Virus record (IMG/VR): IMGVR_UViG_3300032011_001973
Location: 1 to 20,017 of that record
Strand: one strand, 5' to 3'
DNA: 20,017 nt
From: a virus
Each line of letters opens with the position of its first letter. The first letter of the stretch is position 1. The position numbers and the translations under genes are program-made. The notes below the pieces were generated by a model. The model was not told the origin of the DNA and made no database searches. It saw only the letters and a program-made list of their open reading frames with translations. Positions 224-19,059 of the stretch are shown piece by piece.

Positions 224-285
224 TAATCTGTAATAGACATCTTTATTAAATCATAGTAATATTGACAAAGAATTAAGTGAAGACT

Positions 286-291
286 AAGGAG
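286..291 (+). promoter_or_regulatory. Ribosome-binding site fixing the start of the 211-residue gene
   Basis: AAGGAG lies 6 bases before the ATG at 298. This favours 298 over the in-frame GTG at 277, which lies upstream of the site and has no comparable sequence before it. Confidence 0.8.
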
Positions 292-297
292 ACAGTT

Positions 298-945: not shown

Positions 946-2895
946 ATGGCAGTCCCAACATGGAGAAGCCAAGCAGCCCCTAGTTTTGAGGCAGCTTTAG
1001 GAACTATTGCAGATTCTAATAAACAACGTGTCTTAGGCTTAGATAAAATTTCTAAAAGCATAGACGAAGGTTCTGATGCTTACGGCGATATTGTAAAGAA
1101 TGAAGCTTACAATACTCTTTCTAATATTACACCTGAACAAGGTGAATCAAGAGCTGCAGCTCGTCAAAGAACTATATCTGAGAACCCAGGTTCATTTGAT
1201 TCAAGTTTTCTAGGCGCTAAAGAGATGAATAATTTAGAAAAAACTCTTGGTGCTTTAGATGCAGGAAAGAAAGCAGTAGATGACAAATCAGCAATTATGA
1301 ATCACATACGAGATTTATCTACGCTTGAAAGCCCTGACAAGAAAATAGCAATGAATGAGTTTGCCACATTTACTCGTAATAATAATATTAAAGATACAGA
1401 CAATCTTCTTGCACCGATTGCTGATGAATTATTACAACAAACACAAGTACAAATAACTCCTGAGTTAATTAAAAAACATGGAGGAGACCCAAATAATGAA
1501 CGATCTCTTACACCTGATGTTTTAAAAAATATTCAACAAGATATTGAAACTCAAGTAACTAAAAACAATAGATGGGCAAGTCCGAAAGCGCTTAAATCAG
1601 CTTTTAAAGATATTGCTGCTAGATCTGGGTACAAGGCCATGTTTGACAGAATGGTTAAAACGGAAAGCCGTAAATCTACTGTAGATGTAGAATTAGATAA
1701 ACACGCTGGTTTAATAGCTGACTCATTATTTAAAGGTACTAATGAAGATTTAATAAATGCTCTTCAAAATGGTGCTTATTATTTATATACCAATCGAAAT
1801 GAGTTAACAGCAGAACAAGCTGAAATTATAGAACAACCTCTTATTCAAGCAATGGAAGGATTGAAGATAAATGCTTTTGATGTATATACGAGTGAAAAGG
1901 TAGGAGGAATAAAAGGTAAACAAGCTACTGTCTCATTACAAAAAAAGTTTAGAAAGGAGATGCAAAGACAGTATAAAGAAAAATTTAAATGGTTAAGCGA
2001 TGCTGTTATAGATAAAAAAATAGTTGCAGATATTGGAAATGATGATGAGTTAGGAGCTATATTTCAAACAGGAGATATGATTGCTCAGTTTAAAACTAAA
2101 GCTGAGCGAGAAGAACTGGAAGATGCTCTTAAACACAAAAAAGATGATCGTAAATTTTTATACGATATAGCAAGAACCGGTAATACATGGTCTCTTGTAG
2201 CTAAAAAACTTGAAACTAAAATAAATAAAACTCTTGAAGGATTGCCAGAAGCTAAAGATTCAAAACTAAGAGGAGACAATTTAGAAAAGCTGTATAATCA
2301 AGTAAGACTTTCTGTTCAAAAACTTAGTAAATTATTTAAAAAATCGGATGGGTCTTCTACTTTAACAGGAGATCAGAAAAATACATTTGATTTAGCTCTT
2401 TTGAAAATGTTTACTTCGCAAGGAGGAATGGATATAAATGGCAATAATTATAATCCTTTTGATAAGAGTACGTTTGGGCTAATGGGGCTAGAACCAGGTG
2501 AAGATATGTCTAAACTTACTGCAGATCAGTTATTAGAAGGCTTAAAAGAATTTCTCCCTCAACGAAGTCAAAGAACTACTGATAATAGAACACGGGATAA
2601 AGACGGAAAACTTTCAGGAGAACTTCTTGAAACTAAAATTAATGCTCTTTTGGGTAACAATAAAAAAGTAATAGAACCGACTAATGAAAAAACAGGAACG
2701 CTAGTTGGTTATATGAATAAAATATTCCCAACTCCAGAGAAAAGAAGAAAAATACAAGAGACTTTTGTAAAAGAACACGGTAGATCAATGATATGGTATG
2801 ACCCCGTAACTTATGGACCTTGGCTATTAAATAAATACAAAGGCAGCGCAGAAGAAAAAGTAATACGCAGTCTGATGCCGTGGCTAGATAAATGA
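946..2895 (+). CDS. Probable internal virion protein, 649 residues, helical
   Basis: The ATG at 946 is preceded by AAGGAG at 933-938 with a 7-base gap, so the start is well supported. The product is hydrophilic, rich in Lys, Glu, Asp and Leu, and predicted mostly helical, with no signal peptide, membrane span or enzyme motif that I can see. Position and size fit an ejection protein equivalent to the internal virion proteins upstream of the largest ejected protein in T7-like and N4-like phages. It would form part of a trans-envelope conduit or a capsid core. The function is inferred from context alone. Its TGA stop ends one base before the ATG of the giant gene, so translation of the two is probably coupled. 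A structural protein of another kind, such as a scaffold, cannot be excluded. Confidence 0.6.
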   Translation: MAVPTWRSQAAPSFEAALGTIADSNKQRVLGLDKISKSIDEGSDAYGDIVKNEAYNTLSNITPEQGESRAAARQRTISENPGSFDSSFLGAKEMNNLEKTLGALDAGKKAVDDKSAIMNHIRDLSTLESPDKKIAMNEFATFTRNNNIKDTDNLLAPIADELLQQTQVQITPELIKKHGGDPNNERSLTPDVLKNIQQDIETQVTKNNRWASPKALKSAFKDIAARSGYKAMFDRMVKTESRKSTVDVELDKHAGLIADSLFKGTNEDLINALQNGAYYLYTNRNELTAEQAEIIEQPLIQAMEGLKINAFDVYTSEKVGGIKGKQATVSLQKKFRKEMQRQYKEKFKWLSDAVIDKKIVADIGNDDELGAIFQTGDMIAQFKTKAEREELEDALKHKKDDRKFLYDIARTGNTWSLVAKKLETKINKTLEGLPEAKDSKLRGDNLEKLYNQVRLSVQKLSKLFKKSDGSSTLTGDQKNTFDLALLKMFTSQGGMDINGNNYNPFDKSTFGLMGLEPGEDMSKLTADQLLEGLKEFLPQRSQRTTDNRTRDKDGKLSGELLETKINALLGNNKKVIEPTNEKTGTLVGYMNKIFPTPEKRRKIQETFVKEHGRSMIWYDPVTYGPWLLNKYKGSAEEKVIRSLMPWLDK

Positions 2896-2896
2896 T

Positions 2897-5800
2897 ATGG
2901 GAAAGTTCGATAGTATTAAACAGGATTTACGTGGAGATACTGCCACAGTAAATCCTAATTCAACTTCCTTAACTAATCGTTTACTAGAAAGCAAAGCTAG
3001 AATTCGAGATGAGAAAGTAGCTCGAGCTCAGGAAGTATTTGGCCATAAAAACACTGCTCCAATAGCTGAACAAAAAGCCTACATAAAATCTCCAAATAAT
3101 ATTGCTCCAGCTACTGCACCAATAAATATTTCTGAAGATTTTATAGGACAAACAGATACCCGCCGTCAATTAGAAATTCCGCAGAATCAAGAAGATCTAC
3201 CTATAGAAGCACCTATCCTCGATAAACCAGAAGAAGACCTAGCCCCAGCTGATCTACAAATAGATTTAGATAATGCCGCGATTAAACATGGACTTCCTAA
3301 AGGATTATTTACAGCATTAGCTAAACAGGAATCTAATTTTGATAATACAGCTATTTCACAAACAGGAGTTCAGGGTGTACTACAAGTAACTAAAAAAACT
3401 GGTAAAGAGATGTTTGAAGGTACTGGCGTTGAATTTGATGTTACTAATCAAGACCATCAAATAGAAGCTGGGGCTAAATATTTAGCTAAACATATTAAAG
3501 GTTGGAAAGCCAAAGGATTTAGTGAACAGCAGTCTCAGCATTTAGCTACCGCTTCATATAATACTGGATTTGGCCGTGTATCTAACGCTATAGCTGCAAC
3601 GGGGAAAAAACATCCTAATATGCAGGAAATAGAAGATGCTGGTATTGAGTTATTTAAGCAACGTTGGGATACAAGAGATGCTAGTTCAGATAAAGAAAAA
3701 CCTTCTGGAAAAAGAAGAACTACTAAAAAACAATCAGCTCTTAATAGTTTTAAAGAAGGAATGGGGCATTGGAAGAAGATACATTATCAAGATGGAGAAC
3801 TTAAAGACTATACTACTACTGACGTTCCTACCGCTGGAGTTCCTCCTATAGAGATTCCTCCTGCTAAACCAACAGAGGTTGTTACCGCCGGAGGTAAACC
3901 TCCTGTTATGCCTATAAAAGAGGCGAGGCAAGATTTAGATCAACTACAGCAGGAATTTAAAGATTTGGAAGAGGATAAGGCACGACAAGAATCCGAAGCC
4001 AAAGTATTAGCTCAACGAGCAGAGTATCAAAAAGCAGCAGAAGAAAGGAGCAAACCATCTTTATCTCCATCTGATATTACTACGCCAGGAGGTATTGCTA
4101 AAGCAATACAACAAGGAGACACAGAAGTTCTTAAAGATAAAGTCCAAAAGAAAGTACCTATTGATAGTCTTAGTGGTAAAGGAGACTTTGCACCTGGCAG
4201 TACTGCCACAGTAGGTAGACAATATTTAGATGCTAATCTTGATAGTGTAATGGATAACGTTCCAAGACCTGCACCTATATATGAATCTACAGAGGAACCA
4301 GTCAAAGAAACGGAATCTATACCTGAACTTGTCGAAGAATCTCCTAAAGTAGAAGCAGAAAAACCTGAAGTTAAACAATTTAGAGAAGACCCTATTGTAG
4401 ATAAAATTGAGCCCTCTCCTCCAGCTCCTGTTAAAAGTGGTGACTATGACAATGATGAAACACCGCCTAAACTTGTTGAAAAACCTTCCAAACTTGAGCC
4501 TATACCTAAAGATGTTATTCCATCTGGTACAGGAGCATTAGGTTTACTTGATACTGACCCGGCTATAAAAAAAGCAGCTAAAGAATTAACTGCATTAACT
4601 CCGTTAGAAAATACTAGCCCAGTTGTAGAACGTTATGGCACTGCAAGTAAACATGAAGATGGAACATGGTCAGTTTTAACTCGTGAGGGAGTTCCAATCA
4701 GTGGGTTGAGTGAAATATACGCTAAAGCATTTCATGATTACAATTTAGCTAATTGGGAAGCAAATCCAGATGCCCCTCAAGATGGTTCTGCTAAAGAGTA
4801 TTTTAATAGAACTATGGCAGGTTTGGCGTTTCCTGCTAAATTACTTGCTAGTGCTTTTGCCAGGAATGAAAAAGATTTAGCCAATATTTCAGAAATGGCT
4901 GAAAGTTACGAAAAATATTTTCCAGTAAATAGAAAACATGCAGCTGGGGCTGTTACTGCTCTTAAACTTATTGCCGAAAAAGAAGGTACTACAAATGCTT
5001 TAAAATACGCATTCGATAATATGGGTATTTTTATGGAGCAAGGATTTGACAGTATTGGATTTACTATAGCGTTAGCTGTAGGAAACGTACCTGTACAAAT
5101 AGGTATGTTGACTAGTTTATCTTTAGGTAAATCCAGAACAATGAAACAAGAGTGGATAAAAGCCAACCCAGGTCTAGAGTTAACTCCAGAAATAGAAAGA
5201 AGAATCGAGATATCTTCAGCTTTTAGTATGTTAGCTGAAAAAGTCAGTGTTTCTTACATGAAAGGAGTATTAACTGGAAAACCGTTAATTAATAATCCAA
5301 TTGAATGGATGAATAAAGTTGGGGCTTCAATTAATAAAAGCCTAAATGCAAATCTTGGTGCTAAAGCAGCTAATCTTTTGTTAGTTAAACCTGTTACAAA
5401 ATTTGTTCTTCCTGCAGCAGGTGAAGGCGTACAAGAAACTATGAGTAGGTTCGCCGAGAAATATGGCGAGACTGGAGAGAAATTAGGTAAAGGTGAAGTT
5501 GTTGAATCTTTTGTTGGAGGAGCTCTTGCAGGACCTACAATACAAGCTACAGTAGCTGCAACTTTATTAAGCAAGGCTGTAATAGATAAAGCTTTAGAAC
5601 CGTCTAAAGCAACTAAGAATAAAGAATTTCTAGAAGATAGTTTAACTGCCCACAATTTAAAATTAAATCAAATTTCTGCAGAGGAACGTATAAGTGATCT
5701 TGACAGACAAATAGCAGATCTGTCTGTAGAAGTTGTTGATGTTCCTGGTGGCGTTGATAGCGCTAATAAACGTTTTGAGGAAATCTATAATGATCTTAGA

Positions 5801-8800
5801 TCTAGAGAAGATGGGATTAGATCTAAAGATGCAATAGCAGAAGCCAAAGTAATTTTAGCTAACGAGCTTAATCACTTAAAAGGAGAACGAGAACAATTAG
5901 CTAAAGACACAATGTCTTTAAAAATTAAAGACGACCCTTCATTGAGTCAGGATACTAACAATAAATTAGTTGTAGTAAACAAACAAATAGCAGATTTAAA
6001 AAAATCTGAGACTAAAGATCCTGAAGCATTAGCTAAACTTGAACAAACTAAAAAAACTTTAGAAGAAAAATTAGAAACTAAACTGAATAAACAACAACTA
6101 GAATATGTTAGAAAACAGCTAGTAGAACAAAAAGCTAGAATTGAAAGAGCTTTAGGAGGAGATCTTAAAGATACAAAGACAGCTGCTAGTACTATGACTG
6201 AAGGAAAAGGTACTAAATTAGCTGCTGGTGAGGAGGCTGTTTTATTAAAAGAGATAGAAGTAATAGCAAAAGCTGAAGATCCTGGAATGGCTCCTATAGA
6301 AACTGGAGAAGATCTTAGTTTAGATGTAGAAAACGATTATGTTCCTGAAGAAGACAGTGGTTTAGAACGTGTTCAAGAAACTAAAGACGGAAAAGTAATT
6401 AGTAATATTATTCAATTAAAAAAAGAACCTAAAGAATGGTTAGATAAAGAAGGCAGAAGATTAACAGAAAAAGATTTTAAAGATCCTGTTGCATATCAAA
6501 AATTTCTTAACGAAACTAAACAATTCGATGCTAATAAGAAAAAAGGCTTAAATAAACTTGCTGAATTACGCCAAGCTCAATTTGCTGAACTAACTCCTGA
6601 AGATGTAAATCCTTTTAGGCAGCAATTACTAGTAAAGAAATTAGCTGATATCTCTAAACGAGATTTAAATGAAGAACAAAAAACGGTCTTTCGTAATAAA
6701 GTAGCAGATCTTAAAACTGAAGGAATCCTGCCATCTGATGGCGCTAAGAAAGATTCTCAAGCGGATAAATTATTCTCAGGGCCCGATGCATTTGTTGATG
6801 CCCAAAACGCAACTACAGAGCAGATTAAAGCAGTACTTAATGATCCTGATACAGATGCTGATACTAAAGAACATTTTAGAGAAATAGCAAAAGCTAACAG
6901 AGATAAAAAAACATTAGAAAAAGAACTTGAGCGTAAAGAATTTGCAGATGTACATGAAGAAATTGTTAGTGGAGAAAGTAAGAGATTTAAAGGTCTACAT
7001 GCATACCGTGATGAAATTCTAGAAATACTTAAAAATCCAAAAAAGAGAGCAGAGAGATTAGTACAACAACAGTTTGATACTGCATTCGCTGCAATGCAAA
7101 CTCATGCAACTAATCTTAATAATAAGCTTACTGCATTTAAACTAGCATATGACAATGCCTTAACTAAAGACCTTGAAGCAGGTAAGTTATGGGCTGTATC
7201 TGGAGTTATAGATCCTGAAGCTAAGAAGACTAATCCTAATACGCGAAAAATGCAGTACACCGTTTCTAAGATGACTAGAACGGATTTTAATAAAGAAGTG
7301 GAAGAAAGACGAGGAGCTGGAGGGATTAGTTTTCTTACTGAAATTAGTTCAACTAAACAAACCGATACAGACTTAAATTCTCAGAATTTAATTAATGTAC
7401 TTCAACAAGAAGTTAATTTAGGTAGCAGTGCATTAAAATCTATTGAAACATATGATAAAAGTTCTATTGCTAAAAATGAACAAAGAAAAGCACAGAAAGG
7501 TGTATTAGATTCTCAGTTTCTTAGTGCACTTGATGAAATAGAAACAGAAATTGGTGCACCACCAGTTACGCCAATATCTGATGAAACAATAGATAGCCTT
7601 AAGGATCCTCAAAAGAAAGATAAAGAACCTACTGTTACGCCAACTGCTGAACAAAAAGCTAGTACTGATAACATAGCAGAAATTAAAGCAAAACTTGAAG
7701 AAGCAAAAGCTAAATTGGCTGCTGCAGAAGACGCCAAGAAAAATACATTAGGGAGTGCACCAGATGCTGAAATTAATAGGCTTGCAGAAGAAGTCAAGAA
7801 ACTTGAAAAACAACTTGCAGACGCAGAAGCCGCTAAGCAATCTGCAAAAGGTAAGGAATCTGAAGGAGCAGATCCATTATCTGGTGAAGCTTCTAAAGAT
7901 GCTAAATCATCTACTGACTCTGCTGAGCAAGGTGCTGACACGACAGGAGAGACCGGAGAAGGAGCTAAAACTAAAGCAGGTAAAGTACAAGATTTTATAA
8001 CAAGTGCTGTTAAAAAATACTGGCCTGTAATTACTTCAATTGCTAAAGGTAACAAAGAAAAAGTACTGGGAATGTTCGGCGCTTTCTTTACTGATTTAGT
8101 TCAAATTGGTGAGATAGATGACATACAAAATCTCCCTGGCTTACATACTCTTAAAGATACAGACTTTATATGGACTGATGAAGATATAGAAGCAGGAAGA
8201 ATAAGAAAACCTCAAAAATTAGTTGGTACATTTAGTTGGGAAAAACTTAAAGATGCTCTTATAGATTTAGGCGTAGATAAAACTACCGCTAAATATGTAG
8301 CTACAAAATATAAAGTATTTAGAGAAAGATACGAAAATATAGCATGGACAGGAAAAGACTTAAAAGTAGGGCAAGAAGTACGTATTCAAGGTGATGCAAA
8401 TACATACACAATAACATCCATCACTGAAGGAAAAGCTTCGCTCAAGGGCATGGCGGAGCCAATGCCCGTAGAGCGATTGTTTGACGCACGAAATTACGCT
8501 TTAAGAGAACCTTTATCTCTTCTATTACGTAACGATGAGAATGATAAAACTAATTCAGTAGGGAAACTACCAGATCAAATACTGTTAGGTATGTATCTTT
8601 CAGTACTGTCATTTAAAATTAGGAACCCAACTAATAATAGATTTACTTCTGAGTGGCAAAAGAAACAATTCTTATATAGTGGTAAAGAAGATCTTAAACC
8701 AGATGATGAAAGGGAATTAGTAGGTCTAGGCTATAGCTTTAATGACACAGCTGATAGTTTTGGAAAAGATACTGCAGCTATGCTAAGAATGTCAGCTAAA

Positions 8801-11800
8801 CAAATAGCTGAGGATCATCCTACGTTAACCCAAGCAAGTGCTGATCTATATTACTCAAGACTACTTCCTGCTCTAGGAATGATGGCTATAGATATAGCCG
8901 CAGGTACAGATTCTGGAGCTTGGTTTACTATAGAAAACAAAGAATGGAAATTTGACGAGTACAAATCCCAACGAAATTATAATAATACTGGTGACGGTAA
9001 AAATTATAGACATATTAAATTTCCAGAAACTACAGATCAAAACGGTAACATTAAAACTCCTTTAATGTCTACCGAAGGTAAATCTGCATTTGAAAATATA
9101 ATAGATCAACTCGGTATTGAAACAGAACAGTATGGAGAAGTTCTTAGAGAACCTATAGACGTTTCGACTCGTATTAAAAGATCTCTTAAGAAAGTACCTC
9201 GCAAAGTAATAAAAGCTCTTAAAAAGTTACACAATGCTAAATGGAATGTCTCAGAAACTTTGGAGTCAGTAGCTATATTAAATGAAGGCCATAGAGGTAT
9301 TTTAAACCGACTTATGGGCGTACTTCCTACGGAAGGAGCTAAAGTTAAAATTGTCTCTGAGACTCCAAATGCTAAAAAATACGCTAGAGATAATCCTAAT
9401 ACTGCAGTTTATGTAATGCGAGTTAAAGAAAAAGAAGATATCCCGCATGTAAAACCTGAAGAACATTTTGGCAATCCTTGGTCAGCTGAAGGATACACAG
9501 GTCTTGACTTTAAAACTAATAGTATACCAGAAGCTGTTAATAATTATAGAGAGTGGTTAGCAGGTAGAGCCCATCAAGGTGTAGAGCCTAAACGTAGAGA
9601 ATGGATTCGTAAAAAAATTAATGAAGGATTTCTTAATAATAAAGAATTAGTCTATTTTAAATCTGGGTATAAAAGTCATGCAGATGTACTAGCAGAATTT
9701 GTACCAGCAGATATGCATCAACGTCAGAGAGATAAAAATGAAGCTGCCAATAGAGATAAAAATAACGATCTAGACGCTATATTAGAAGCCGATAAAGAAG
9801 GTAAATTAAAAGATTTTTACTTTGGTTATGAACTACAAGGACACCACAGAGTTCTTCAGCAAGGAAAAATAAACCCTCAGCACAGTAAGGTTACTAGATT
9901 TTTATTACAGTCTTGGGGAGCACAAACTTATAACAAAGATAACTTGTGGAAATTTAAATTAGCTGTTGTTCAAAATTTTGGCTTAGACGTTGATAAAAAC
10001 AACATGGCCTATGCTGAAACTGAATTCGATCACATTATCAATAATGGCAATGTGCAAGAAGCTGTAAAAGCTATGCAAGTTCTTAAGGAAGATAAAAACA
10101 ATAAAGAGGCTGCTAATAAATTAGCAGAAGCACTATCAGAAATTAAGAGTACTAAAGAGTACAAGGATGTAAACATACAGCTAGTAACAGCTATTACTGC
10201 ATTAACTAATTACATGCCTTCTGGAAACCCTCTTAGTCTAAAGACCGAATTTAAATCTGACATAGTAATGGAGATTGATGGGATTACTAATGGGTTTGCT
10301 ATGAACCTTTTACAATTTCCAATGTTTAAAGATGAGCAATTAAAGAAACATTTAAACCAAGTAGGTAATTGGTTTGATGTTAGATCATTACATGATCCGT
10401 CTAAACCTGACGTGTATATGAATTTAATTGAACATATTAAAGTTGGAGCAACAAATGATACAGCACTTAGTTGGTATATAGAGAATTCGTGGAAAAATGA
10501 TTTTATTAAAGAAGCTGGAGAATATACAAAAGGAACTAAAAGAAAGCCATTAACTCCAAAACAACAAAAAGAAAATGACGCAACAATAAAAGCTTATGAA
10601 GCTTTGTATGGTAATAGGAGTAAAGCATTAGAAGATTTAGCTCCAGATATGCACCTTTACGATAAAGGTATGCGTAAAACTGTTAAATATCCTTTCATGA
10701 TTTACATGTATGGAGGAGGAACTAAGAGTATTGCTCAAGGAGTTGCATCGGATATCGTTGATAGTCTCTATGAACAAGCTACTGATTTGCATAATATGCA
10801 CCAAGATATGCAAAATAACCGGTTATCTCCAGAAGCAAGAAAACATTTACATGCATTGGGCATGAAAACTACTAAAGAATTTGCAGATAGTATAGATAAA
10901 TTTGTAGATAATTTAGATAAATTAGGCGCATTTGAAGGTAATAAATCTCCATCTAAAGAAGAATATAGACAGTTACTATTAGATGGCAAAGCATTAGATG
11001 TAGATAAGAGCGGAAAGGCATTATACAGCTTTAACGACTCAGAGCTAGTTAAAGTAATTGGTAGAACAGTAGAGCCTAGATTTGAGCATGGTTTAAATTC
11101 TATGCTAGGAGATACTAAAAATGCTAGAAGTAGTGTAATTAAGATGGGGCAAATGATGCATCGGATGTTTATGCTCCGTTATGAAAGAGCTTACAAAAAT
11201 AAATTAAAACAGGTAAACGAAGAATACAAAGCTAAGCTCAGTGATGAGGACAAACGTAATTTTGTTGAAGTAGATCGATTAACTGACCAACAAGTACAAC
11301 AAATGATATCTGGAGTTAATGCAGAATTATCAGAGGTTATTCCTCAAGCTGCAGGGCCTCTAGCTCAGATGCTTAAAAATAAAAAAGGAGAAGAATACAC
11401 AGATGGTGCTCTTGATTTAAGTTCTATAGAAACAGTCCGAACTGAAGATAAAACTCAAGATCCTAATGAGCCTTGGAATACTGAAAAATTAGAGATTAGA
11501 AGTGATAAAATTGAAAATAAAATAAAACAAGAAGATGGTACTCAGTTTAATAGAGACATCATGGCTAAACAATTACAATTTGTTGAGTCAGGAGTAAGTG
11601 TATTAATTCGCCAGATTCAGAATATGGATTCTGTAATCTTAACTCAGACATTTGGTGGAGGAAATGGTAAAGGAGATCCTAGAATTAATGTAGGATTCAC
11701 TAGTAATGCATGGCAAGGAGATGGCAATGTTCTACCACTACATGATGCATTTATGGCTAGTCCAGAACAACTATCTAGGATATCTGAGATCTACGGAAAA

Positions 11801-14800
11801 ACTTACATAGAATACAATAAGAAATACAGCATTATTGAAACTACTCTTAAACAAGTAAAAAAGATTAAAGATACATTAACTGAAGAACAAGTTAATGAAT
11901 TAAATAATTGGTACTACAAAGAAGAACAACAACAAGAAAAACAAAATCCTAAAGATGCAGATGATTTTATTAAAGAGTTTGAAAAAGAAACAGATCAAGT
12001 TATTAAAGCTCGTGAGAAACTTTTCGCAGAAATGAAAGCAAGAGGCATGGTTTCACATCAGCTATATATGCCTCAGCCTGGGACTTCACCAAGTACTCAA
12101 AGCCGTAATGATGCTGCTTTAAATGAAGTTGATTCTGCAATAAATGGTGACCTTCCTCAAGGTGAAAGACCTGTTCTACCATTTAATGATGAGAAAGGTA
12201 AACCTGTAAAAGTTAATGACGATCAGTGGAGAGCTATGGCTCAAATGGAAGCATGGTGGGGTACTGATATATCAGACATAAATAATAAAATATTTGTATT
12301 ACAAGGCAGAGGTGGCACAGGTAAAACTACTATTGTTGAAGCTGCTTTAACAAATCTTGGATTAAATATGGAACCGGATGAAAAAGGAAAATTAATTAAT
12401 AATCCTGAATTAGGGCAAGTTAAGTTTGCTCTACCTACACATAAAGCTAAGCAAGTAATTCAACAAGCTGCTGGTAAATATAAAGACGATGATTTTGATA
12501 CGATTGCCGGTTTATTAGGAGAAAAACCAGAATTTGTATCTTCTACTGATAAAGCAGGAAACGTAGTTTGGAAAGCAGTATTTAAAAAAGATCCTACAGC
12601 AGCTAATAAACAGAAAGACGCTTTAGAAGGAGTTAAAGTAATTGTTATTGATGAAGCTTCAATGGTAAACGAAAAGCAAACAAAACAGTTAATTGCAATA
12701 GCGGAAGAATTAGGAATACGCTTATTATTTATGGGTGATAATGTTCAATTACCTCCTATAGAAAAATTTGGTAAAGGAACTGTAGATGTAGCTATGGTAT
12801 TTGACACTGTAATGGAAATTAACCAAAAAGATAAAGTACCTATAAATATTAAAGCTCATTATGCCAAATTAGATGAACGTATGAGACAGGATGCAGGTAA
12901 TCCTATATTAGGCGTTACAGACATTCTTGCTAACGTTGCAGAATGGTTCCATAAACACCATACAATTTATAAAAAGGAATTCGGGAAAAATTCAGACGTA
13001 AATTTTCAACTTCCATTTATTAACAATGACAACGTTACATACAAAGAAACGCACCAGGTGAAGCTTCCAGGAGAAAAGTATAAGCAACATTTTCCAACTG
13101 ACTCAACAATTACAGAATTTGCTGAGGAATATAAAAAAGCCAAAGAAGCAAAAAATGAAAAAGGCGTTAAGTATATTCATTTCAATGCTGGAGATCACGT
13201 AAGATCTATGAAACTTCGTGCAAAGATTCGTAAGGCAATTTTTGGGGAAGCTGATCCAGGTTTAAATGAGAAAGGAAAATTCATTAAAGAATTTCTTAAA
13301 GGTGAACGACTAGTAATAGATGAATCTACATCTCTACTTAACGGACAGACGGTTGAAAGTTATACTAAAAAATTAAAGAATGGAGATGAAGTAACTGTAC
13401 ATAAAGAACTAGAGACTATTACGTATGCTTCGTATAAAGACGGAAAAGATAATGAGTACACAGGAGAGAAAGCTCCAGTTTACGAAAATATTACTGTAAA
13501 TGTTTTAGAAGTTAAGTTAGATGGTAATGACACACCATTTAAGCTAGTACTAAAACATGACAAGTCTGAAGCAGATATACAAAGAGAAATGATGAGGAAA
13601 CGTAGGTATGGTGAACTTATTAGTGTTGACGAGCTTACAAAGAAATTCTCCAAGTCTCAACCAGGGCGTACTATATTTACCAATCTCTCTGCCTCAGAAA
13701 TAGCCAGTGATCCTTCACTTCTAACTGGATACAAAGAGTACAAAGAGGGAAAAATAGCTAAAGAGATGTTTACAGAAGGTCTAGGCGCAGCTTATATAAT
13801 TAATTCCCATAAAGCACAAGGTAGTACATACGATACTGTATATGCTGATTATGAAAATATTCTACGTGGCTTTCATGGTTCTGATTTCTTAACTAGAGTA
13901 AAAGCATTATATGTTGCTACTTCCCGCCCACGAACTAGACTTGTATTAGTCGGATCTTCAGGTCAAGGGAAAAAATTATCATTTGGTACTGGTGTAAAAA
14001 ACACGGATAAAAAAAGTGAAAGATACAACGAAGATCTATTTGATGCTAACCAAAAAATAAAAGATGACATCGAAAAGGGTGTAACTCCTTTCTTAGATGA
14101 TGAGATTAGTAAAAAAGTGACAGATACCGTTGGATCAATAGATGACTTACCAAAAGTTCCAACGGCTAAGCCAGAGGATCTTGGAAGTATTACTGAAGGT
14201 AACTTTATGAAACTATTTAATAAGTTTAAAGCATTTTCAACTCAATATTATGCTGATGCTCAGGAAATGCTTGGACATACTGAAACCTTAGATACAGTTT
14301 TAGGCATTCTAAGTGAGGGAATTACTGAGATAGGAGGAATTAAATTAACCAAACAGGAGGTTGATGGAATTACCCAAGGTGAATACGACATAGCTAATAA
14401 AGCTATGACAATAAACCTGAGTAATGGTGCACCATTTAATGTTAATCAATCTCCGCAAGAAGTTTATGTTCATGAATTATTGCATGCCACTACAGCTCTC
14501 GCTATAAGAGAAAATCCTTTAATTGCTGATCGTGTACATAGAGTTTATCTCCAAACTAAAAGAGCTTTAGACTCAAAATATGGTAAAAATTTAGGTTATA
14601 AAGTATTTTTAGAGGGAATTGATAATCCTTCTAAAAATGATACAGCCATGGCTGAAAAACAATATAATTACGTATTTGCAGGTAAAGAGAAGAATAGGTT
14701 ACATGAGTTTTTAGCTTACTCTGCGACTAACCGACAAATAATTAATTTTCTTAAGACTCAGCCTAAACCGGTAAGAGAAGGGATTCTAGATAATATAATA

Positions 14801-17689
14801 GGTATCATTGCTTCTGTAATGAATTTCTTAAAATCTTCCTTCGGTAGCAGAACTTACGCAGCTAAGAGTGACAATGCATTTGCAGAAATACTTGCTGCTA
14901 CTGAACATCTAGTAGCTACTCAAGCTAAACATGAAAGCATGTTAGATAGGTTAAGTGCTTATACCTATAATAATTTAGATAAATCAGATAAATTTATTAA
15001 ACGAACTGGAGAGGACATACTTCTTAAGATTCAAGGTAAGGAGGGCGAAAACACAGGTATTCTTAGACAAACTGCTCTTACTGTTGGCGGTGGACTTTAT
15101 GGCATATTAAACACCGGTGAGAAAGATTCTAATTTTAACAGAGTATCTTTAGCTCTTAGAGAGAAAATAGATCAAGGATTGAATAAAACAATGAGAGGTA
15201 TTGCTAGTGAAATTGGAGACGGAGCTCTTACCAAAGAAATGATCGAACAATTACTCTATGTAAAAGTTAATATATCTAAAGCTCGTCAGCAAGCAGAGAC
15301 ATTTACAATGAGTTGGTTTAATGGAAATAAAGAAGAAGGAATAGAAGGTATCTGGAAATCAGTTAAAGAAGGTGACAAGCATGGAATAGATGCCAAAACG
15401 AAAGTAGCCCTAACTAGGGTGCTATTTCAAACGGATTTATCTGTTCTTTTAAACGAAGGTAATGAGTGGGAAATGAGTCCTTCTGAAATAATGGATCTTA
15501 TAGGTCATACTGGTAAAGCTAGGAGAGATACATTAAAAGCTAGAATAGCTACAGAACTTAAACTTTCCCATAAGTCAGACCCTCTTAGTTATGCAAAAGA
15601 ATTAGGATATTGGATTGCTACAGGAAATACTAGATTAGATGATTCTCATACTAATGTACGCACTATTGCGGCAAAGTATTTCACCAATCCTACAACTGCT
15701 GAGATAAATCTACTAGATATGTATTCTACGTTATCTGCTTTAGATTATACGGATACTACTCATAATAAAGCTGTTTTAAAGCTAGCTAAAGCTGAATTTG
15801 GGGCCAATTTTGAACGCAATGGCATAAGTGATCTTCTTAAGAGTCATCGTACATATAAACAGAATGTACGAGCGGAGAACTTTGAAGAGAATGAAATGCA
15901 GCTAGTTAAGGGTTATATCGTAGAACGTATAGATAACTTTACTCATATTAGAATGGGTAGAGCTGACCAGAAAAAAGAAATGAAACAATTAGGTTATTCT
16001 GAGAGCTACCCAGTAACAAAGATAGATGGTAGTCAAACGATTGATACAATGTATGTTACACGTACTACACCAGAAGTTACTGATGTATCTGGGGTAATGT
16101 CTACGACTAATCAACGTAATATGGGTACTACACTAACTGAAATCCTTGTCAGAGATCCGGCATATCACCATACAAAAGGACCTAATAAAGGCAAGCCAGA
16201 TTTCTATAAAATACAAGCTAAAGTGGAGAAGTTTATTAAAGCTAAGAGTAGATCTGCTAAAGCTAATACAAACAACGTATGGAATGATGACTTAACCATG
16301 CGTCCTCTTAGAGACCAAGCCGGGAATATTACTGATTATCGAGTAATGATGAATCATGCAGATGTGGAGCAGATTATTCGTCCAGATCTAGAAATTGACC
16401 ATGTTTTTGCTCATATGAGATCTTCAGCTGTGGATCGTAAAGAAACCATCGAGAGTGATAAGAAGACTGTAGAGCTTCTAGTATATGAACAAATGGATAT
16501 GATGAAAACTAATCCAGGCCTACATTGGATTGATATTATGGATCCAAACTCTCCATACATAGATCGTTATAGAAAACTTCCTAAAGCTGTCAGAGATCAT
16601 ATGAACGAGTATGCAATAGGTGGGCAGTTCTTTATTAGAGAAGATATTATTGATAAAGTATTTGGATACAAATCATTTGATCTATCTGAATTAAAAATGC
16701 TCCAGGATGAAGATACCAAATCTAAACGTATTATCAAAAGAGTTGCAGGAGTAACTCATCATGCAATTAAACAAACTGTCGGGTATGGTAAAAATAGAGT
16801 AGTTATTGCTATGCCTAAAGTAGTCATAGGCAATATGATGTCTAATATCTACCAGCTTATGATGAGGAAGATCCCATTAGATTATATCTTCCATAAAATC
16901 TATGAGGGTATACACGAATATAATAAGTATCGTAAAGATACGGAAAGACGTATAACGCTTAAACATGAAATTGAGTCACAAAACTTAGATACTGTTACAA
17001 GTCCAGAAGCTATCGAAATGAGCCAATTGGATGATCGTATTAAAGGTAATCTAATTCATAGAATGAGTAAAGCTGGGTTAAATTCTCTTATTGTTGAGGA
17101 TATTAATGATGCTCAAACGGATGGATGGTTGAATAAATTACAGAAGACTATCCCATATTCTTTCCCAAAAGCGCAGAAGTTTATAGATAAGATGCCTTCT
17201 GAATTAGGGGATGCAGCAAGGTTTGTATTTATGACTAAAGGCAGTAAGCCTTACCAATATGCTCGCCATGTAGTGCAGCTAACGGATTTCTTAGCTCGGT
17301 ATGTAATGATTGAGCATGGTACTAAGGTAAAAGGACGACCTTTTAATGATGTAATGCATGAATCTTTAGATGGATTTGTAGTATTTGATGAAGCTCTTGT
17401 CCCAGCATTAGAAGCACTAGAAGCTGTAGGAGCCACGTCATTCCTTTCTTACTATCTTCGTAATGCTAGATCATCTAGAAAATTAGCTGCATCTAGTCCT
17501 ACAGGTGTAGCACTTGCTGCTGCAGTTCAGCATACCACTGGTATATCTGCATTAGGAAACGTAAACAGTTCCTGGTTAGCAGGTAGATTCTCTCCAAATA
17601 TGCTTCAAACAGATGACCTATTTGATGAAGCTAATAACGTTACTCTATTTGATATAGTAAAGAATGAAGGTAGAGATCTATTTAATTAA
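2897..17689 (+). CDS. Giant ejected polyprotein with virion RNA polymerase: transglycosylase, RNAP, SF1 helicase, zincin; 4930 residues
   Basis: One uninterrupted frame of 4930 codons. Approximate domain order: 120-255 lytic transglycosylase (Glu145); 256-560 Pro/Glu/Lys-rich linker; 700-900 Ala/Gly-rich hydrophobic region; 915-1090 and 1590-1660 coiled coils; 1824-1862 SH3-like module; 1865-3060 T7/N4-type RNA polymerase; 3100-3700 SF1 helicase; 3740-3960 HExxH zincin; about 3970-4930 tail of unknown fold with repeated helical segments. N4 virion RNA polymerase (about 3500 residues) also has a central polymerase, is packaged and ejected, and transcribes early genes. By analogy this protein would enter the host with the DNA; that is inference. 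The start follows the previous stop by one base and has no visible ribosome-binding site, suggesting termination-reinitiation. Long multi-enzyme proteins of this style are known as polyvalent proteins. Polymerase and helicase calls are strong; tail function is unknown. Confidence 0.9.
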   Translation: MGKFDSIKQDLRGDTATVNPNSTSLTNRLLESKARIRDEKVARAQEVFGHKNTAPIAEQKAYIKSPNNIAPATAPINISEDFIGQTDTRRQLEIPQNQEDLPIEAPILDKPEEDLAPADLQIDLDNAAIKHGLPKGLFTALAKQESNFDNTAISQTGVQGVLQVTKKTGKEMFEGTGVEFDVTNQDHQIEAGAKYLAKHIKGWKAKGFSEQQSQHLATASYNTGFGRVSNAIAATGKKHPNMQEIEDAGIELFKQRWDTRDASSDKEKPSGKRRTTKKQSALNSFKEGMGHWKKIHYQDGELKDYTTTDVPTAGVPPIEIPPAKPTEVVTAGGKPPVMPIKEARQDLDQLQQEFKDLEEDKARQESEAKVLAQRAEYQKAAEERSKPSLSPSDITTPGGIAKAIQQGDTEVLKDKVQKKVPIDSLSGKGDFAPGSTATVGRQYLDANLDSVMDNVPRPAPIYESTEEPVKETESIPELVEESPKVEAEKPEVKQFREDPIVDKIEPSPPAPVKSGDYDNDETPPKLVEKPSKLEPIPKDVIPSGTGALGLLDTDPAIKKAAKELTALTPLENTSPVVERYGTASKHEDGTWSVLTREGVPISGLSEIYAKAFHDYNLANWEANPDAPQDGSAKEYFNRTMAGLAFPAKLLASAFARNEKDLANISEMAESYEKYFPVNRKHAAGAVTALKLIAEKEGTTNALKYAFDNMGIFMEQGFDSIGFTIALAVGNVPVQIGMLTSLSLGKSRTMKQEWIKANPGLELTPEIERRIEISSAFSMLAEKVSVSYMKGVLTGKPLINNPIEWMNKVGASINKSLNANLGAKAANLLLVKPVTKFVLPAAGEGVQETMSRFAEKYGETGEKLGKGEVVESFVGGALAGPTIQATVAATLLSKAVIDKALEPSKATKNKEFLEDSLTAHNLKLNQISAEERISDLDRQIADLSVEVVDVPGGVDSANKRFEEIYNDLRSREDGIRSKDAIAEAKVILANELNHLKGEREQLAKDTMSLKIKDDPSLSQDTNNKLVVVNKQIADLKKSETKDPEALAKLEQTKKTLEEKLETKLNKQQLEYVRKQLVEQKARIERALGGDLKDTKTAASTMTEGKGTKLAAGEEAVLLKEIEVIAKAEDPGMAPIETGEDLSLDVENDYVPEEDSGLERVQETKDGKVISNIIQLKKEPKEWLDKEGRRLTEKDFKDPVAYQKFLNETKQFDANKKKGLNKLAELRQAQFAELTPEDVNPFRQQLLVKKLADISKRDLNEEQKTVFRNKVADLKTEGILPSDGAKKDSQADKLFSGPDAFVDAQNATTEQIKAVLNDPDTDADTKEHFREIAKANRDKKTLEKELERKEFADVHEEIVSGESKRFKGLHAYRDEILEILKNPKKRAERLVQQQFDTAFAAMQTHATNLNNKLTAFKLAYDNALTKDLEAGKLWAVSGVIDPEAKKTNPNTRKMQYTVSKMTRTDFNKEVEERRGAGGISFLTEISSTKQTDTDLNSQNLINVLQQEVNLGSSALKSIETYDKSSIAKNEQRKAQKGVLDSQFLSALDEIETEIGAPPVTPISDETIDSLKDPQKKDKEPTVTPTAEQKASTDNIAEIKAKLEEAKAKLAAAEDAKKNTLGSAPDAEINRLAEEVKKLEKQLADAEAAKQSAKGKESEGADPLSGEASKDAKSSTDSAEQGADTTGETGEGAKTKAGKVQDFITSAVKKYWPVITSIAKGNKEKVLGMFGAFFTDLVQIGEIDDIQNLPGLHTLKDTDFIWTDEDIEAGRIRKPQKLVGTFSWEKLKDALIDLGVDKTTAKYVATKYKVFRERYENIAWTGKDLKVGQEVRIQGDANTYTITSITEGKASLKGMAEPMPVERLFDARNYALREPLSLLLRNDENDKTNSVGKLPDQILLGMYLSVLSFKIRNPTNNRFTSEWQKKQFLYSGKEDLKPDDERELVGLGYSFNDTADSFGKDTAAMLRMSAKQIAEDHPTLTQASADLYYSRLLPALGMMAIDIAAGTDSGAWFTIENKEWKFDEYKSQRNYNNTGDGKNYRHIKFPETTDQNGNIKTPLMSTEGKSAFENIIDQLGIETEQYGEVLREPIDVSTRIKRSLKKVPRKVIKALKKLHNAKWNVSETLESVAILNEGHRGILNRLMGVLPTEGAKVKIVSETPNAKKYARDNPNTAVYVMRVKEKEDIPHVKPEEHFGNPWSAEGYTGLDFKTNSIPEAVNNYREWLAGRAHQGVEPKRREWIRKKINEGFLNNKELVYFKSGYKSHADVLAEFVPADMHQRQRDKNEAANRDKNNDLDAILEADKEGKLKDFYFGYELQGHHRVLQQGKINPQHSKVTRFLLQSWGAQTYNKDNLWKFKLAVVQNFGLDVDKNNMAYAETEFDHIINNGNVQEAVKAMQVLKEDKNNKEAANKLAEALSEIKSTKEYKDVNIQLVTAITALTNYMPSGNPLSLKTEFKSDIVMEIDGITNGFAMNLLQFPMFKDEQLKKHLNQVGNWFDVRSLHDPSKPDVYMNLIEHIKVGATNDTALSWYIENSWKNDFIKEAGEYTKGTKRKPLTPKQQKENDATIKAYEALYGNRSKALEDLAPDMHLYDKGMRKTVKYPFMIYMYGGGTKSIAQGVASDIVDSLYEQATDLHNMHQDMQNNRLSPEARKHLHALGMKTTKEFADSIDKFVDNLDKLGAFEGNKSPSKEEYRQLLLDGKALDVDKSGKALYSFNDSELVKVIGRTVEPRFEHGLNSMLGDTKNARSSVIKMGQMMHRMFMLRYERAYKNKLKQVNEEYKAKLSDEDKRNFVEVDRLTDQQVQQMISGVNAELSEVIPQAAGPLAQMLKNKKGEEYTDGALDLSSIETVRTEDKTQDPNEPWNTEKLEIRSDKIENKIKQEDGTQFNRDIMAKQLQFVESGVSVLIRQIQNMDSVILTQTFGGGNGKGDPRINVGFTSNAWQGDGNVLPLHDAFMASPEQLSRISEIYGKTYIEYNKKYSIIETTLKQVKKIKDTLTEEQVNELNNWYYKEEQQQEKQNPKDADDFIKEFEKETDQVIKAREKLFAEMKARGMVSHQLYMPQPGTSPSTQSRNDAALNEVDSAINGDLPQGERPVLPFNDEKGKPVKVNDDQWRAMAQMEAWWGTDISDINNKIFVLQGRGGTGKTTIVEAALTNLGLNMEPDEKGKLINNPELGQVKFALPTHKAKQVIQQAAGKYKDDDFDTIAGLLGEKPEFVSSTDKAGNVVWKAVFKKDPTAANKQKDALEGVKVIVIDEASMVNEKQTKQLIAIAEELGIRLLFMGDNVQLPPIEKFGKGTVDVAMVFDTVMEINQKDKVPINIKAHYAKLDERMRQDAGNPILGVTDILANVAEWFHKHHTIYKKEFGKNSDVNFQLPFINNDNVTYKETHQVKLPGEKYKQHFPTDSTITEFAEEYKKAKEAKNEKGVKYIHFNAGDHVRSMKLRAKIRKAIFGEADPGLNEKGKFIKEFLKGERLVIDESTSLLNGQTVESYTKKLKNGDEVTVHKELETITYASYKDGKDNEYTGEKAPVYENITVNVLEVKLDGNDTPFKLVLKHDKSEADIQREMMRKRRYGELISVDELTKKFSKSQPGRTIFTNLSASEIASDPSLLTGYKEYKEGKIAKEMFTEGLGAAYIINSHKAQGSTYDTVYADYENILRGFHGSDFLTRVKALYVATSRPRTRLVLVGSSGQGKKLSFGTGVKNTDKKSERYNEDLFDANQKIKDDIEKGVTPFLDDEISKKVTDTVGSIDDLPKVPTAKPEDLGSITEGNFMKLFNKFKAFSTQYYADAQEMLGHTETLDTVLGILSEGITEIGGIKLTKQEVDGITQGEYDIANKAMTINLSNGAPFNVNQSPQEVYVHELLHATTALAIRENPLIADRVHRVYLQTKRALDSKYGKNLGYKVFLEGIDNPSKNDTAMAEKQYNYVFAGKEKNRLHEFLAYSATNRQIINFLKTQPKPVREGILDNIIGIIASVMNFLKSSFGSRTYAAKSDNAFAEILAATEHLVATQAKHESMLDRLSAYTYNNLDKSDKFIKRTGEDILLKIQGKEGENTGILRQTALTVGGGLYGILNTGEKDSNFNRVSLALREKIDQGLNKTMRGIASEIGDGALTKEMIEQLLYVKVNISKARQQAETFTMSWFNGNKEEGIEGIWKSVKEGDKHGIDAKTKVALTRVLFQTDLSVLLNEGNEWEMSPSEIMDLIGHTGKARRDTLKARIATELKLSHKSDPLSYAKELGYWIATGNTRLDDSHTNVRTIAAKYFTNPTTAEINLLDMYSTLSALDYTDTTHNKAVLKLAKAEFGANFERNGISDLLKSHRTYKQNVRAENFEENEMQLVKGYIVERIDNFTHIRMGRADQKKEMKQLGYSESYPVTKIDGSQTIDTMYVTRTTPEVTDVSGVMSTTNQRNMGTTLTEILVRDPAYHHTKGPNKGKPDFYKIQAKVEKFIKAKSRSAKANTNNVWNDDLTMRPLRDQAGNITDYRVMMNHADVEQIIRPDLEIDHVFAHMRSSAVDRKETIESDKKTVELLVYEQMDMMKTNPGLHWIDIMDPNSPYIDRYRKLPKAVRDHMNEYAIGGQFFIREDIIDKVFGYKSFDLSELKMLQDEDTKSKRIIKRVAGVTHHAIKQTVGYGKNRVVIAMPKVVIGNMMSNIYQLMMRKIPLDYIFHKIYEGIHEYNKYRKDTERRITLKHEIESQNLDTVTSPEAIEMSQLDDRIKGNLIHRMSKAGLNSLIVEDINDAQTDGWLNKLQKTIPYSFPKAQKFIDKMPSELGDAARFVFMTKGSKPYQYARHVVQLTDFLARYVMIEHGTKVKGRPFNDVMHESLDGFVVFDEALVPALEALEAVGATSFLSYYLRNARSSRKLAASSPTGVALAAAVQHTTGISALGNVNSSWLAGRFSPNMLQTDDLFDEANNVTLFDIVKNEGRDLFN
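3254..3661 (+). other. Lytic transglycosylase (SLT) domain of the giant protein
   Basis: Residues about 120-255. The SLT signature is visible: GLPKGLFTALAKQESNF with catalytic Glu145, then TGVQGVLQVTKKTGKEM (the usual G-x-x-G-x-x-Q-x-x-P-x-T block), then ASYNTGFGRV (the AYNxG-type block). The fold cleaves peptidoglycan between MurNAc and GlcNAc. In an ejected protein it would open the cell wall locally for genome entry. Its placement at the extreme N-terminus fits a first-out role, which is inference. Confidence 0.87.
4994..5596 (+). other. Hydrophobic, possibly membrane-active region of the giant protein
   Basis: Residues about 700-900. It includes a hydrophobic stretch near 717-745 (FTIALAVGNVPVQIGMLTSL), the motif GEGVQETMSRFAEKYG starting at residue 842, and a Gly/Ala-rich stretch (SFVGGALAGPTIQATVAATL). 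The EGxQE-plus-glycine-zipper pattern recurs, as I recall it, in very large phage ejection and polyvalent proteins, where it may insert into or cross the inner membrane. No clean transmembrane topology can be assigned by eye. Confidence 0.5.
5639..6166 (+). other. Coiled-coil region of the giant protein
   Basis: Residues about 915-1090 are rich in Leu, Lys and Glu with heptad-like spacing, for example KLEQTKKTLEEKLETKL and YVRKQLVEQKARIERAL. This is probably a structural spacer or oligomerisation segment between the membrane-active part and the polymerase. Confidence 0.6.
7664..7876 (+). other. Second Ala/Glu/Lys coiled coil of the giant protein
   Basis: Residues about 1590-1660 form a low-complexity helix (IKAKLEEAKAKLAAAEDAKK, then LAEEVKKLEKQLADAEAAK) followed by a Ser/Gly/Asp-rich flexible stretch to about 1695. 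It looks like a rigid-then-flexible linker leading to the polymerase half. Confidence 0.65.
8438..8476 (+). other. Strong GC-rich hairpin, 15 base pairs with GGA triloop, inside the giant gene
   Basis: 8438-8443 pairs with 8471-8476 (TCGCTC/GAGCGA), 8446-8451 with 8462-8467 (GGGCAT/ATGCCC) and 8452-8454 with 8458-8460 (GGC/GCC), around a GGA loop at 8455-8457. Unpaired bases are AA at 8444-8445, GTA at 8468-8470 and A at 8461. The tip reads GCGGAGC, an instance of the unusually stable d(GCGNAGC) mini-hairpin. The element spans exactly 13 codons, starts on a codon boundary and is about two thirds G+C in an AT-rich gene. Its role is unknown. Confidence 0.75.
8489..12076 (+). other. Single-subunit (T7/N4-type) RNA polymerase domain of the giant protein
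   Basis: Residues about 1865-3060. All catalytic motifs are in order. Motif A is EIDGITNGF with Asp2461. Motif B is R-x3-K-x7-YG with Arg2593, Lys2597 and Tyr2605, the spacing of T7 R627/K631/Y639 and N4 R666/K670/Y678. Motif C is LPLHDAF with His2949 and Asp2950. The TxxGR-type region reads GHHRVLQQGKINPQ, where Arg2318 aligns without gaps to T7 Arg425 (RVYAVSMFNPQ). Spacing from Arg2318 to A, B and C (143, 275 and 632 residues) is somewhat longer than in N4 (about 131, 238 and 523). The domain would make RNA from the phage genome. Promoter specificity cannot be read from the sequence. Confidence 0.88.
9449..9706 (+). other. DUF4326-like segment inside the polymerase domain
   Basis: Residues about 2185-2270 read EEHFGNPWS, then AVNNYREWLAG, then KELVYFKSGYKSHADVLAEF. 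This has the layout of DUF4326: an N-terminal GNP motif, a central Y-x-x-W-L helix and a C-terminal HADVLAE. The cysteines of the usual C-x-C...CH ending are absent here. It lies about 50 residues before the TxxGR-type motif. The match rests on recalled family pattern; its function is unknown. Confidence 0.5.
12194..13996 (+). other. Superfamily 1 (Dda/RecD-like) helicase domain of the giant protein
   Basis: Residues about 3100-3700. Visible motifs: Q-like DDQW at 3108-3111; Walker A GRGGTGKTT at 3137-3145 with Lys3143; Ia LPTHKAK near 3179; Walker B VIDEAS with Asp3252 and Glu3253; III MGDNVQLPP near 3279-3287; a LDERMRQ block (motif IV area); V SHKAQGST at 3637-3644; VI YVATSRPR at 3672-3679. 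A beta-rich insertion between IV and V fits the accessory SH3-like part of Dda. All ATPase residues are intact, so it should unwind DNA, probably 5' to 3' as in this family. Confidence 0.9.
14114..14776 (+). other. HExxH zinc metallopeptidase-like (zincin) domain of the giant protein
   Basis: Residues about 3740-3960 contain QEVYVHELLHATTALAI. His3859, Glu3860 and His3863 form HExxH, and a HEFLAYS motif at 3936-3942 is a candidate for the third ligand. It is preceded by a GEYDIANKAMTINLS strand-like block typical of zincins in phage polyvalent proteins. It could process the giant chain itself or act on a host protein. Neither is shown by sequence, and the third ligand is uncertain. Confidence 0.65.
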
Positions 17690-18594: not shown

Positions 18595-19059
18595 CTATTT
18601 CTCCTTATAGTTTAATCCGTAATGAGCAATCATTAATGCATCAGCTCTACCATCTAGTAAACCGCCTCTTTTACCTTGTAACTGTGCGTTTGGATATAAT
18701 CCTTGAGCTATTTTAGCTACCTCTTTTTTAATGCCTTTTCCTTTAACAGTAACACCTATGTATTTTTGCCATACCTTAGGAGTAACTTGTTGAACAGGCC
18801 CATCGGAAACTGCTAATTTGGCGATTGCAAATGCTATGCCAAAATTTCTACCAAATCCAAAATTAGATTTTGCGGACATTCCATATAATGAATGTACACT
18901 TTCTAAAAAAATAACATTTATTTTTTTATTGTGTAACCATTTAGTAGTTTCATAAATACTATATTTATTTAAATCTAACAGAGCAACGCTGTCTGGATTC
19001 TCTGAATCCAGAACAGCGATTGCTCCATTAGCCCCAGGATCAATGCCTGCGATAAACAT
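18595..19059 (-). CDS. RuvC-like Holliday junction resolvase, 154 residues
   Basis: The protein opens MFIAGIDPGANGAIAVLDSE, the first strand of the RuvC/RNase H fold with Asp7. A second acidic position is Glu53 in VIFLESVHS, and the C-terminal pair is Asp136 and Asp140 in GLLDGRADALMIAHYG. These match the four-carboxylate site of RuvC (Asp7, Glu66, Asp138 and Asp141 in E. coli). Such phage enzymes cut branched DNA made during replication and recombination, clearing concatemers for packaging. The central region (SNFGFGRNFGIAFAIAK, then VTPKVWQKYIGV) is typical of phage and bacterial RuvC relatives. The ATG overlaps the TAA of the upstream SSB gene as TAATG with no strong ribosome-binding site, which implies coupled translation. 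The length is close to that of other phage RuvC-like enzymes. The substrate preference is not readable from sequence. Confidence 0.88.
   Translation of the reverse strand: MFIAGIDPGANGAIAVLDSENPDSVALLDLNKYSIYETTKWLHNKKINVIFLESVHSLYGMSAKSNFGFGRNFGIAFAIAKLAVSDGPVQQVTPKVWQKYIGVTVKGKGIKKEVAKIAQGLYPNAQLQGKRGGLLDGRADALMIAHYGLNYKEK
18987..19018 (-). other. Long hairpin with triloop in the 5' part of the resolvase gene
   Basis: On the plus strand CTGGATTC (18993-19000) pairs perfectly with GAATCCAG (19004-19011) around TCT. An outer CGCTG (18987-18991) pairs with CAGCG (19014-19018), with T18992 pairing one of two As. That gives 14 pairs and one bulged base. On the transcribed (minus-sense) RNA the loop is AGA and the hairpin begins about 41 bases after the start codon. 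Confidence 0.65.

Follow-up and report, generated by a model that had tools for sequence, protein, structure and literature searches.

The window, the entire IMG/VR record of 20,017 bases analysed here, is complete as recorded but has no known end repeats, and therefore represents a fragment of a genome. Its plus strand contains one ATG-started ORF (2897..17689) of 4930 codons without an internal stop, encoding an N4-type virion RNA polymerase (vRNAP), or polyvalent ejection protein, with an inserted helicase. When a profile of nine relatives was compared, using hhalign, with one built from six vRNAPs of cultured Schitoviridae, residues 720-4905 of this protein aligned with residues 295-3483 of N4 gp50 (E 5e-104). 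Similarly, phmmer matched the ORF to the N4 vRNAP structures 11fw and 11gp, and PHROG assigned it to the virion RNA polymerases with an E value of 9e-162. The domains follow the order SLT transglycosylase, N4-type vRNAP, SF1 helicase, HExxH domain and C2 domain, a large chain of unrelated enzyme domains including a zincin, as is characteristic of polyvalent proteins, with the context of phage injection assigned by homology. An earlier note, made from the letters of the DNA, had described one uninterrupted chain of the N4 vRNAP type carrying transglycosylase, polymerase, helicase and zincin activities; the intact frame and the full-length match to gp50 bear this out, and the Pfam and PHROG matches support the four activities by homology. 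By analogy with N4, the protein would be packaged in the virion and ejected.

Upstream, on the same strand, are a 218 aa protein at the position of N4 gp52 (277..933), which has weak PHROG matches of unknown function, and a 649 aa protein (946..2895) assigned by position to the gp51 ejection protein, for which no family match was found in Pfam or PHROG. The vRNAP start codon lies one base past the preceding stop (2889-2899), and a clear Shine-Dalgarno sequence is absent; translation of the vRNAP is probably coupled to that of the gp51-like gene. Two convergent genes on the minus strand encode a RuvC-like Holliday junction resolvase (18595..19059; phrog_1770, 2.3e-23) and a Schitoviridae-type single-strand DNA binding protein (SSB) similar to N4 gp45 (19059..19814; phrog_743, 2e-49). 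This order, of gp52-like, gp51-like and vRNAP genes followed by convergent resolvase and SSB, is that of N4, LIT1, pVco-5 and SBP1.

Gene content beyond the 20 kb window was taken from a relative, G003, that is 92% identical in the C-terminal domains (CTD) of the vRNAP. It adds a stand-alone helicase, DNA polymerase, ligase, N4-type RNAPII and TerL, as well as Sak4, primase and exonuclease genes named by position and size only. Together, the gene orders of the window and G003 indicate a phage of the Schitoviridae type. The RNAPII of these relatives appears as one chain of approximately 595 residues (L078 7229-9013 on the minus strand, L185 from 4185, L191 from 4720, and L091), and for the copy in L078 there are matches to two families of N4-type RNAP; N4 itself, by contrast, assembles its RNAPII as a gp15-gp16 heterodimer. 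The end of the 53 kb G003 contig (L079 13359-19917), which may be chimeric, carries a second DNA polymerase, an exonuclease and a helicase-like ORF.

Domains of the chain

The SLT lytic transglycosylase domain (residues 127-239; 3275..3613, plus strand) matches PF01464 with an E value of 1.2e-17 and 63.9 bits, above the cut-off of 21.3. The type of hydrolase varies among relatives: SLT is found in the window and L003, a phrog_4067 transglycosylase (1.8e-15) in L002, a stretch recognised as SLT-like by eye only in L007 and no assigned type in L008, while SLT is also present in the helicase-less relatives L019, L021 and L035. A helical, hydrophobic region (residues 720-960; 5054..5776, plus strand) is homologous to part of the N4 N-terminal domain, and is where the hhalign path to N4 begins. 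The predicted membrane helices of N4 lie at 224-278 (PMC12633501) and are themselves unaligned, as the path starts only at N4 residue 295; the region may nevertheless serve as an N4-type membrane or ejection region.

The single-subunit RNAP domain occupies residues about 1694-3080 (7976..12136, plus strand), equivalent to N4 998-2103. Both MAFFT and profile alignments place the N4 catalytic residues R1421, D1556, K1667, Y1675 and D1948 opposite R2318, D2461, K2597, Y2605 and D2950, the codons of which begin at 9848, 10277, 10685, 10709 and 11744, respectively. The T7-fold residues R, D, K, Y and D are thus present in the N4 register along with the E-x-D-G-x-x-x-G motif, and Pfam N4_RNAP_helical is matched at 2583-2677 (E 4.6e-6). 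Ahead of the RNAP core, and unmentioned in the earlier note, is a 123 aa DUF4326-like insert (residues 2148-2270; 9338..9706, plus strand), evident as a gap relative to N4, with a phrog_464 match (7e-6) and a weak Pfam DUF4326 match below the cut-off (E 8.8e-4). It is missing from L003 and L008, and in L007 sits after the helicase.

Behind the polymerase, N4 has a flexible linker of 23 residues, invisible in the structure, at 2102-2123, followed in the cryo-EM structure by the HExxH domain C1 at 2124-2375; the N4 CTD lowers the activity of the RNAP (PMC12633501). The equivalent zincin-like C1 domain of the window (residues about 3755-4042; 14159..15022, plus strand) was delimited by phrog_2206 and a local hhalign alignment to N4 C1 (E 2.6e-5), in which HELLH at 3859-3863 (14471-14485) corresponds to the N4 HELVH at 2228, and E3937, the candidate third ligand, to a conserved N4 glutamate. 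This combination of HExxH and downstream glutamate, typical of zincins, is invariant in the aligned clade. C1 leads into the helical C2 domain (residues about 4043-4930; 15023..17686, plus strand), which is common to all N4-like vRNAPs and is the best conserved region of the protein; phrog_2206 extends over 3848-4903 and phmmer aligned 4577-4881 to 11gp. A C-terminal HExxH domain followed by C2 is the arrangement of N4-like vRNAPs, and the earlier note was wrong to regard the zincin as an addition behind the polymerase: such a domain comes first in the standard C-terminal region of every N4-like vRNAP, as is evident from the alignment to N4 C1, from PMC12633501 and from the main text of Iyer et al. 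(PMC5512222). Once inside the cell, the predicted zincin may cleave the chain.

Between these conserved regions lies an SF1B helicase of the Dda/RecD2/Pif1-like type (residues 3099-3690; 12191..13966, plus strand). Pfam AAA_30 and AAA_19 match at 3127-3293 (1.2e-17 and 4.4e-14, respectively), UvrD_C_2 at 3632-3685 (4.1e-6) with 27.0 bits, slightly below the 27.4 cut-off, and the PHROG Dda-like helicase at 3099-3687 (1.1e-40). All of the SF1 motifs I, Ia, II, III, V and VI are intact, including motif I, GRGGTGKTT (12305-12331), motif II, DEAS (12650-12661), and motif VI, YVATSR (13910-13927), and they are invariant in relatives with helicases 43-69% identical to that of the window. With the RNAP residues and HELLH also aligned, the earlier claim that the key catalytic residues are intact holds. 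A profile search of the PDB with the helicase had RecD, Pif1 and RecD2 among its matches, and Foldseek placed T4 Dda (3UPU) first (E 2e-12), from a low-confidence model (pLDDT 50) and with a low TM-score. A corresponding search with the zincin model (pLDDT 53) found no fold match; as both AlphaFold models, built from alignments of five to six rows, were poor, the folds of the two domains are assigned from sequence profiles.

The insertion site was located by local hhalign, since in the global path the helicase is forced into register with N4 C1. In the local register, RNAP residues up to about window 3080 fall on N4 about 2094-2113 and HELLH 3859 falls on N4 2228, such that a helicase of about 590 aa is inserted at the site of the N4 RNAP-CTD linker. 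As a predicted member of the SF1B class, it would be expected to unwind DNA 5' to 3' in an ATP-dependent manner. T4 Dda, N4 gp37, RecD2 and Pif1, with which it has all SF1 motifs in common and of which Dda is the top match to the low-confidence fold model, are free-standing; by contrast, the window's helicase is within a vRNAP, belongs to its own clade and has long inserts.

The window's protein shares with N4 gp50 (3500 aa), and with Schitoviridae vRNAPs in general, the RNAP core with its five catalytic residues, C1 with its HExxH, C2, part of the N-terminal region and the position of the gene between the gp51-like gene and convergent replication genes. It differs in its length of 4930 aa, reference vRNAPs being 2842-3820 aa (PMC10654107), and in its SLT domain, DUF4326-like insert and linker helicase. 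Combinations of an N4-type RNAP, a zincin and a peptidoglycan hydrolase with swapped effector domains are described, under the name 'polyvalent proteins', in the main text of Iyer et al. 2017 (PMC5512222): a Moraxella prophage vRNAP is fused to a lysozyme/transglycosylase and a PBECR RNase, and a Roseovarius phage vRNAP to an ART. The RNAP partners in that main text are thus ART, lysozyme and PBECR rather than a helicase, and the helicases it mentions are of the SNF2-type SF2 class and, in Streptomyces plasmids, UvrD. No fusion of a vRNAP to a helicase was found in the open-licence literature, including the main text of PMC5512222. Consequently, of an architecture for which the earlier note could name no described precedent, the inserted SF1 helicase is the only part for which this stands in the literature searched, the transglycosylase-vRNAP fusion having been reported in 2017 and the zincin being standard.

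Distribution and evolution of the inserted helicase

A search of viral contigs with the CTD yielded 27 loci, among which helicase motifs between RNAP and zincin were found only in the window, L002/L005, L003/L017, L007 and L008; L006 and L009 are cut off and are undecidable in this respect. The sister locus, L018, and all more distant loci lack the helicase. The carriers, together with L006, form one clade on the CTD tree (97/95), and hence one gain of the helicase suffices. In all members of the clade that can be resolved, the helicase follows the RNAP directly, at RNAP-core identities down to about 50%. Although G003 carries a stand-alone gp37-like helicase besides the fused one, the suggestion that the fused helicase arose by duplication of this resident gene was rejected, as the fused helicases form a 100/100 clade of their own that is distinct from the gp37-like genes standing alone in these phages.

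Matches to the helicase at an E value of 1e-3 were present in 275 of 50,697 phage records, at one place each. In 60 of these, spread across the ranking, most annotated matches fell in genes labelled as helicase, exonuclease/RecD or hypothetical protein, with around a dozen records unannotated; in the handful of cultured schitoviruses among the 60 for which positions were compared (LIT1, DEV, DL64, TEMp-D2 and several more), the match was far from the vRNAP gene. Scanning viral contigs directly with the helicase alone gave no match, and no relative was found by scanning genome contigs.

The window is a single metagenome contig, and in its closest relative the chain is split over two contigs with the break exactly inside the helicase, as might be expected were separate vRNAP and helicase genes wrongly joined by assembly or annotation. 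Such an artefact, which the earlier note had raised along with a search for full-length homologues, is nevertheless vanishingly improbable and was rejected: the same domain order is kept in relatives of 4,700 to 5,959 aa from four other metagenomes (3300006921, 3300034352, 3300009104 and 3300032278, only the last of which has its copy split over two contigs), at helicase identities of 43-69%, which excludes a join made by assembly. Furthermore, purifying selection is evident in the helicase and on either side of it. Between the window and L003, dN/dS rose from 0.10 in C2, through 0.23 in the RNAP core and 0.27 in the helicase, to 0.64 in a disordered stretch, and over all pairs it ranged from 0.27 to 0.54 in the helicase and from 0.58 to 0.64 in the disordered stretch. 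The ratios were obtained by simple counting, at dS values close to 1 or higher, and indicate orders of size only.

The helicase is less conserved than the RNAP core and C2, and has been swapped between relatives. Identity between the window and L002/L005 falls from 92% in the CTD to 60% in the helicase, and the L002/L005 helicase is nearer that of L008 (64%), whereas in the N-terminal region L002 is nearest L003 (75%). This disagreement of identity matrices between regions, along with the changes in hydrolase type, indicates that the protein evolves through module exchange. The earlier note's reading of the domain order as a sequence of events during genome entry is overstated, with the same domains shuffled in relatives.

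Other sequences occupy the same linker. In the longest vRNAP, that of L007 (G005) at 5,959 aa, the helicase is followed by extra modules, noted in residues 2370-3260 of the L007 fragment: a DUF7831 (E 7.8e-30), a DUF4326-like domain, a NADAR-like stretch identified by eye only, without a firm match, and some unassigned domains; these modules could possibly have an NAD/ADP-ribose-related counter-defence role. A second HExxH (HERAH) was also observed in L007 between the RNAP and the helicase. Six helicase-less loci (L019, L020, L021, L022, L031 and L035) have a common linker insert before the HExxH, AIAKLGGI...GYGYL, and L018 has yet another. The cultured schitovirus Vibrio phage 1.169.O (L011 507-12788) has a vRNAP of 4,093 aa with an insert of approximately 400 aa between RNAP and zincin. 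The clade shows the RNAP-CTD linker of vRNAPs to be an insertion slot, and the chains of relatives are up to 5,959 residues long.

Candidate promoters and the role of the helicase

A search for repeated words in the relatives G003, L185, L191 and L091, that is, outside the window, identified a candidate for the vRNAP early promoter of the lineage, the mini-hairpin GGCTACGCC. It occurs six times in the early region of G003, only on the strand that encodes the early genes, the opposite strand having no copy, at 21-222 bases ahead of a start codon; one copy is 86 bases ahead of RNAPII. It is likewise repeated in L185 and L191, and in both, as in L091, it precedes the RNAPII gene. An extended form, GGCTACGCC[TG]ANTAG, was noted on one strand upstream of early genes and RNAPII in G003 (L078 9000-16478), L185, L191 and L091. 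Before RNAPII in G003, L185 and L191 there is a perfect 5 bp stem with a 3 base loop, TCGGC-TAC-GCCGA, of the same shape as the N4 promoter hairpin (PMC12633501). The repeated hairpin words of the helicase-less G014, and those of the examined parts of G015, did not include this word. A proposal that the helicase replaced hairpin promoters was unsupported: as candidate promoters of this type, with repeated GGC-TAC-GCC hairpin motifs, persist in a helicase-bearing relative, the promoter structure has not been replaced by the helicase.

The best explanation overall, to which we assign an even chance, is a polyvalent ejection vRNAP of the Schitoviridae type with an SF1B helicase tethered in its linker and acting in cis. 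Sequence comparison backs the identity of the domains, their intact catalytic motifs, the insertion site, purifying selection and the gain of the helicase on one occasion in one clade. SF1B helicases move 5' to 3', and on the non-template strand this would be the same direction as the polymerase. As in N4, several copies of the vRNAP would be packaged, leaving the virion together with the end of the genome, and the helicase would remain tethered to the RNAP. The vRNAP of N4 is inactive on double-stranded DNA, its hairpin promoters being exposed by host gyrase and SSB (PMC4496689). As the helicase lies in the hinge behind the polymerase, the latter may carry its own DNA-opening motor, which could open the template, aid formation of the small promoter hairpins and help draw DNA in. 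That the tethered helicase opens double-stranded DNA in cis, making early transcription, and possibly DNA entry, independent of host gyrase and SSB, is a more tentative proposal, which we regard as possible but doubtful.

The unrelated inserts at the same linker or nearby sites in L007, L018 and L019/L021/L022/L031/L035 mean that the linker may instead be a general cargo slot without coupling to transcription. The helicase would then be an independent early effector riding in the vRNAP, perhaps released by the zincin, with a role such as starting replication, stripping host proteins off the DNA or countering nuclease defence. The mosaic distribution of N-terminal hydrolase and helicase between relatives, and the lower conservation and swapping of the latter, are as replaceable cargo would be expected to behave, and such a role is in keeping with the view of polyvalent proteins published in the main text of PMC5512222. 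The same text has N4 vRNAP packaged uncut, however, and the constant fusion of the helicase right behind the RNAP across the resolvable clade also argues against a passenger, leaving this a tentative alternative. A further suggestion, that the helicase is mainly a translocase pulling the genome through the ejection channel, with promoter opening secondary, draws on the vRNAP, and middle transcription at a later stage, driving entry of the N4 genome (PMC4496689), on the association of the vRNAP with the membrane and on SF1B enzymes being directional motors. Yet these enzymes load on a single-stranded end or gap, whereas entering phage DNA is double-stranded, and N4 and the helicase-less relatives manage without a helicase; a primary role in import is thus unlikely.

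In N4-like phages, a polymerase that reads single strands on incoming double-stranded DNA needs host gyrase and SSB, and vRNAPs with a built-in helicase offer a direct comparison. Were the tethered helicase to act as proposed, these phages would be less dependent on both host factors.
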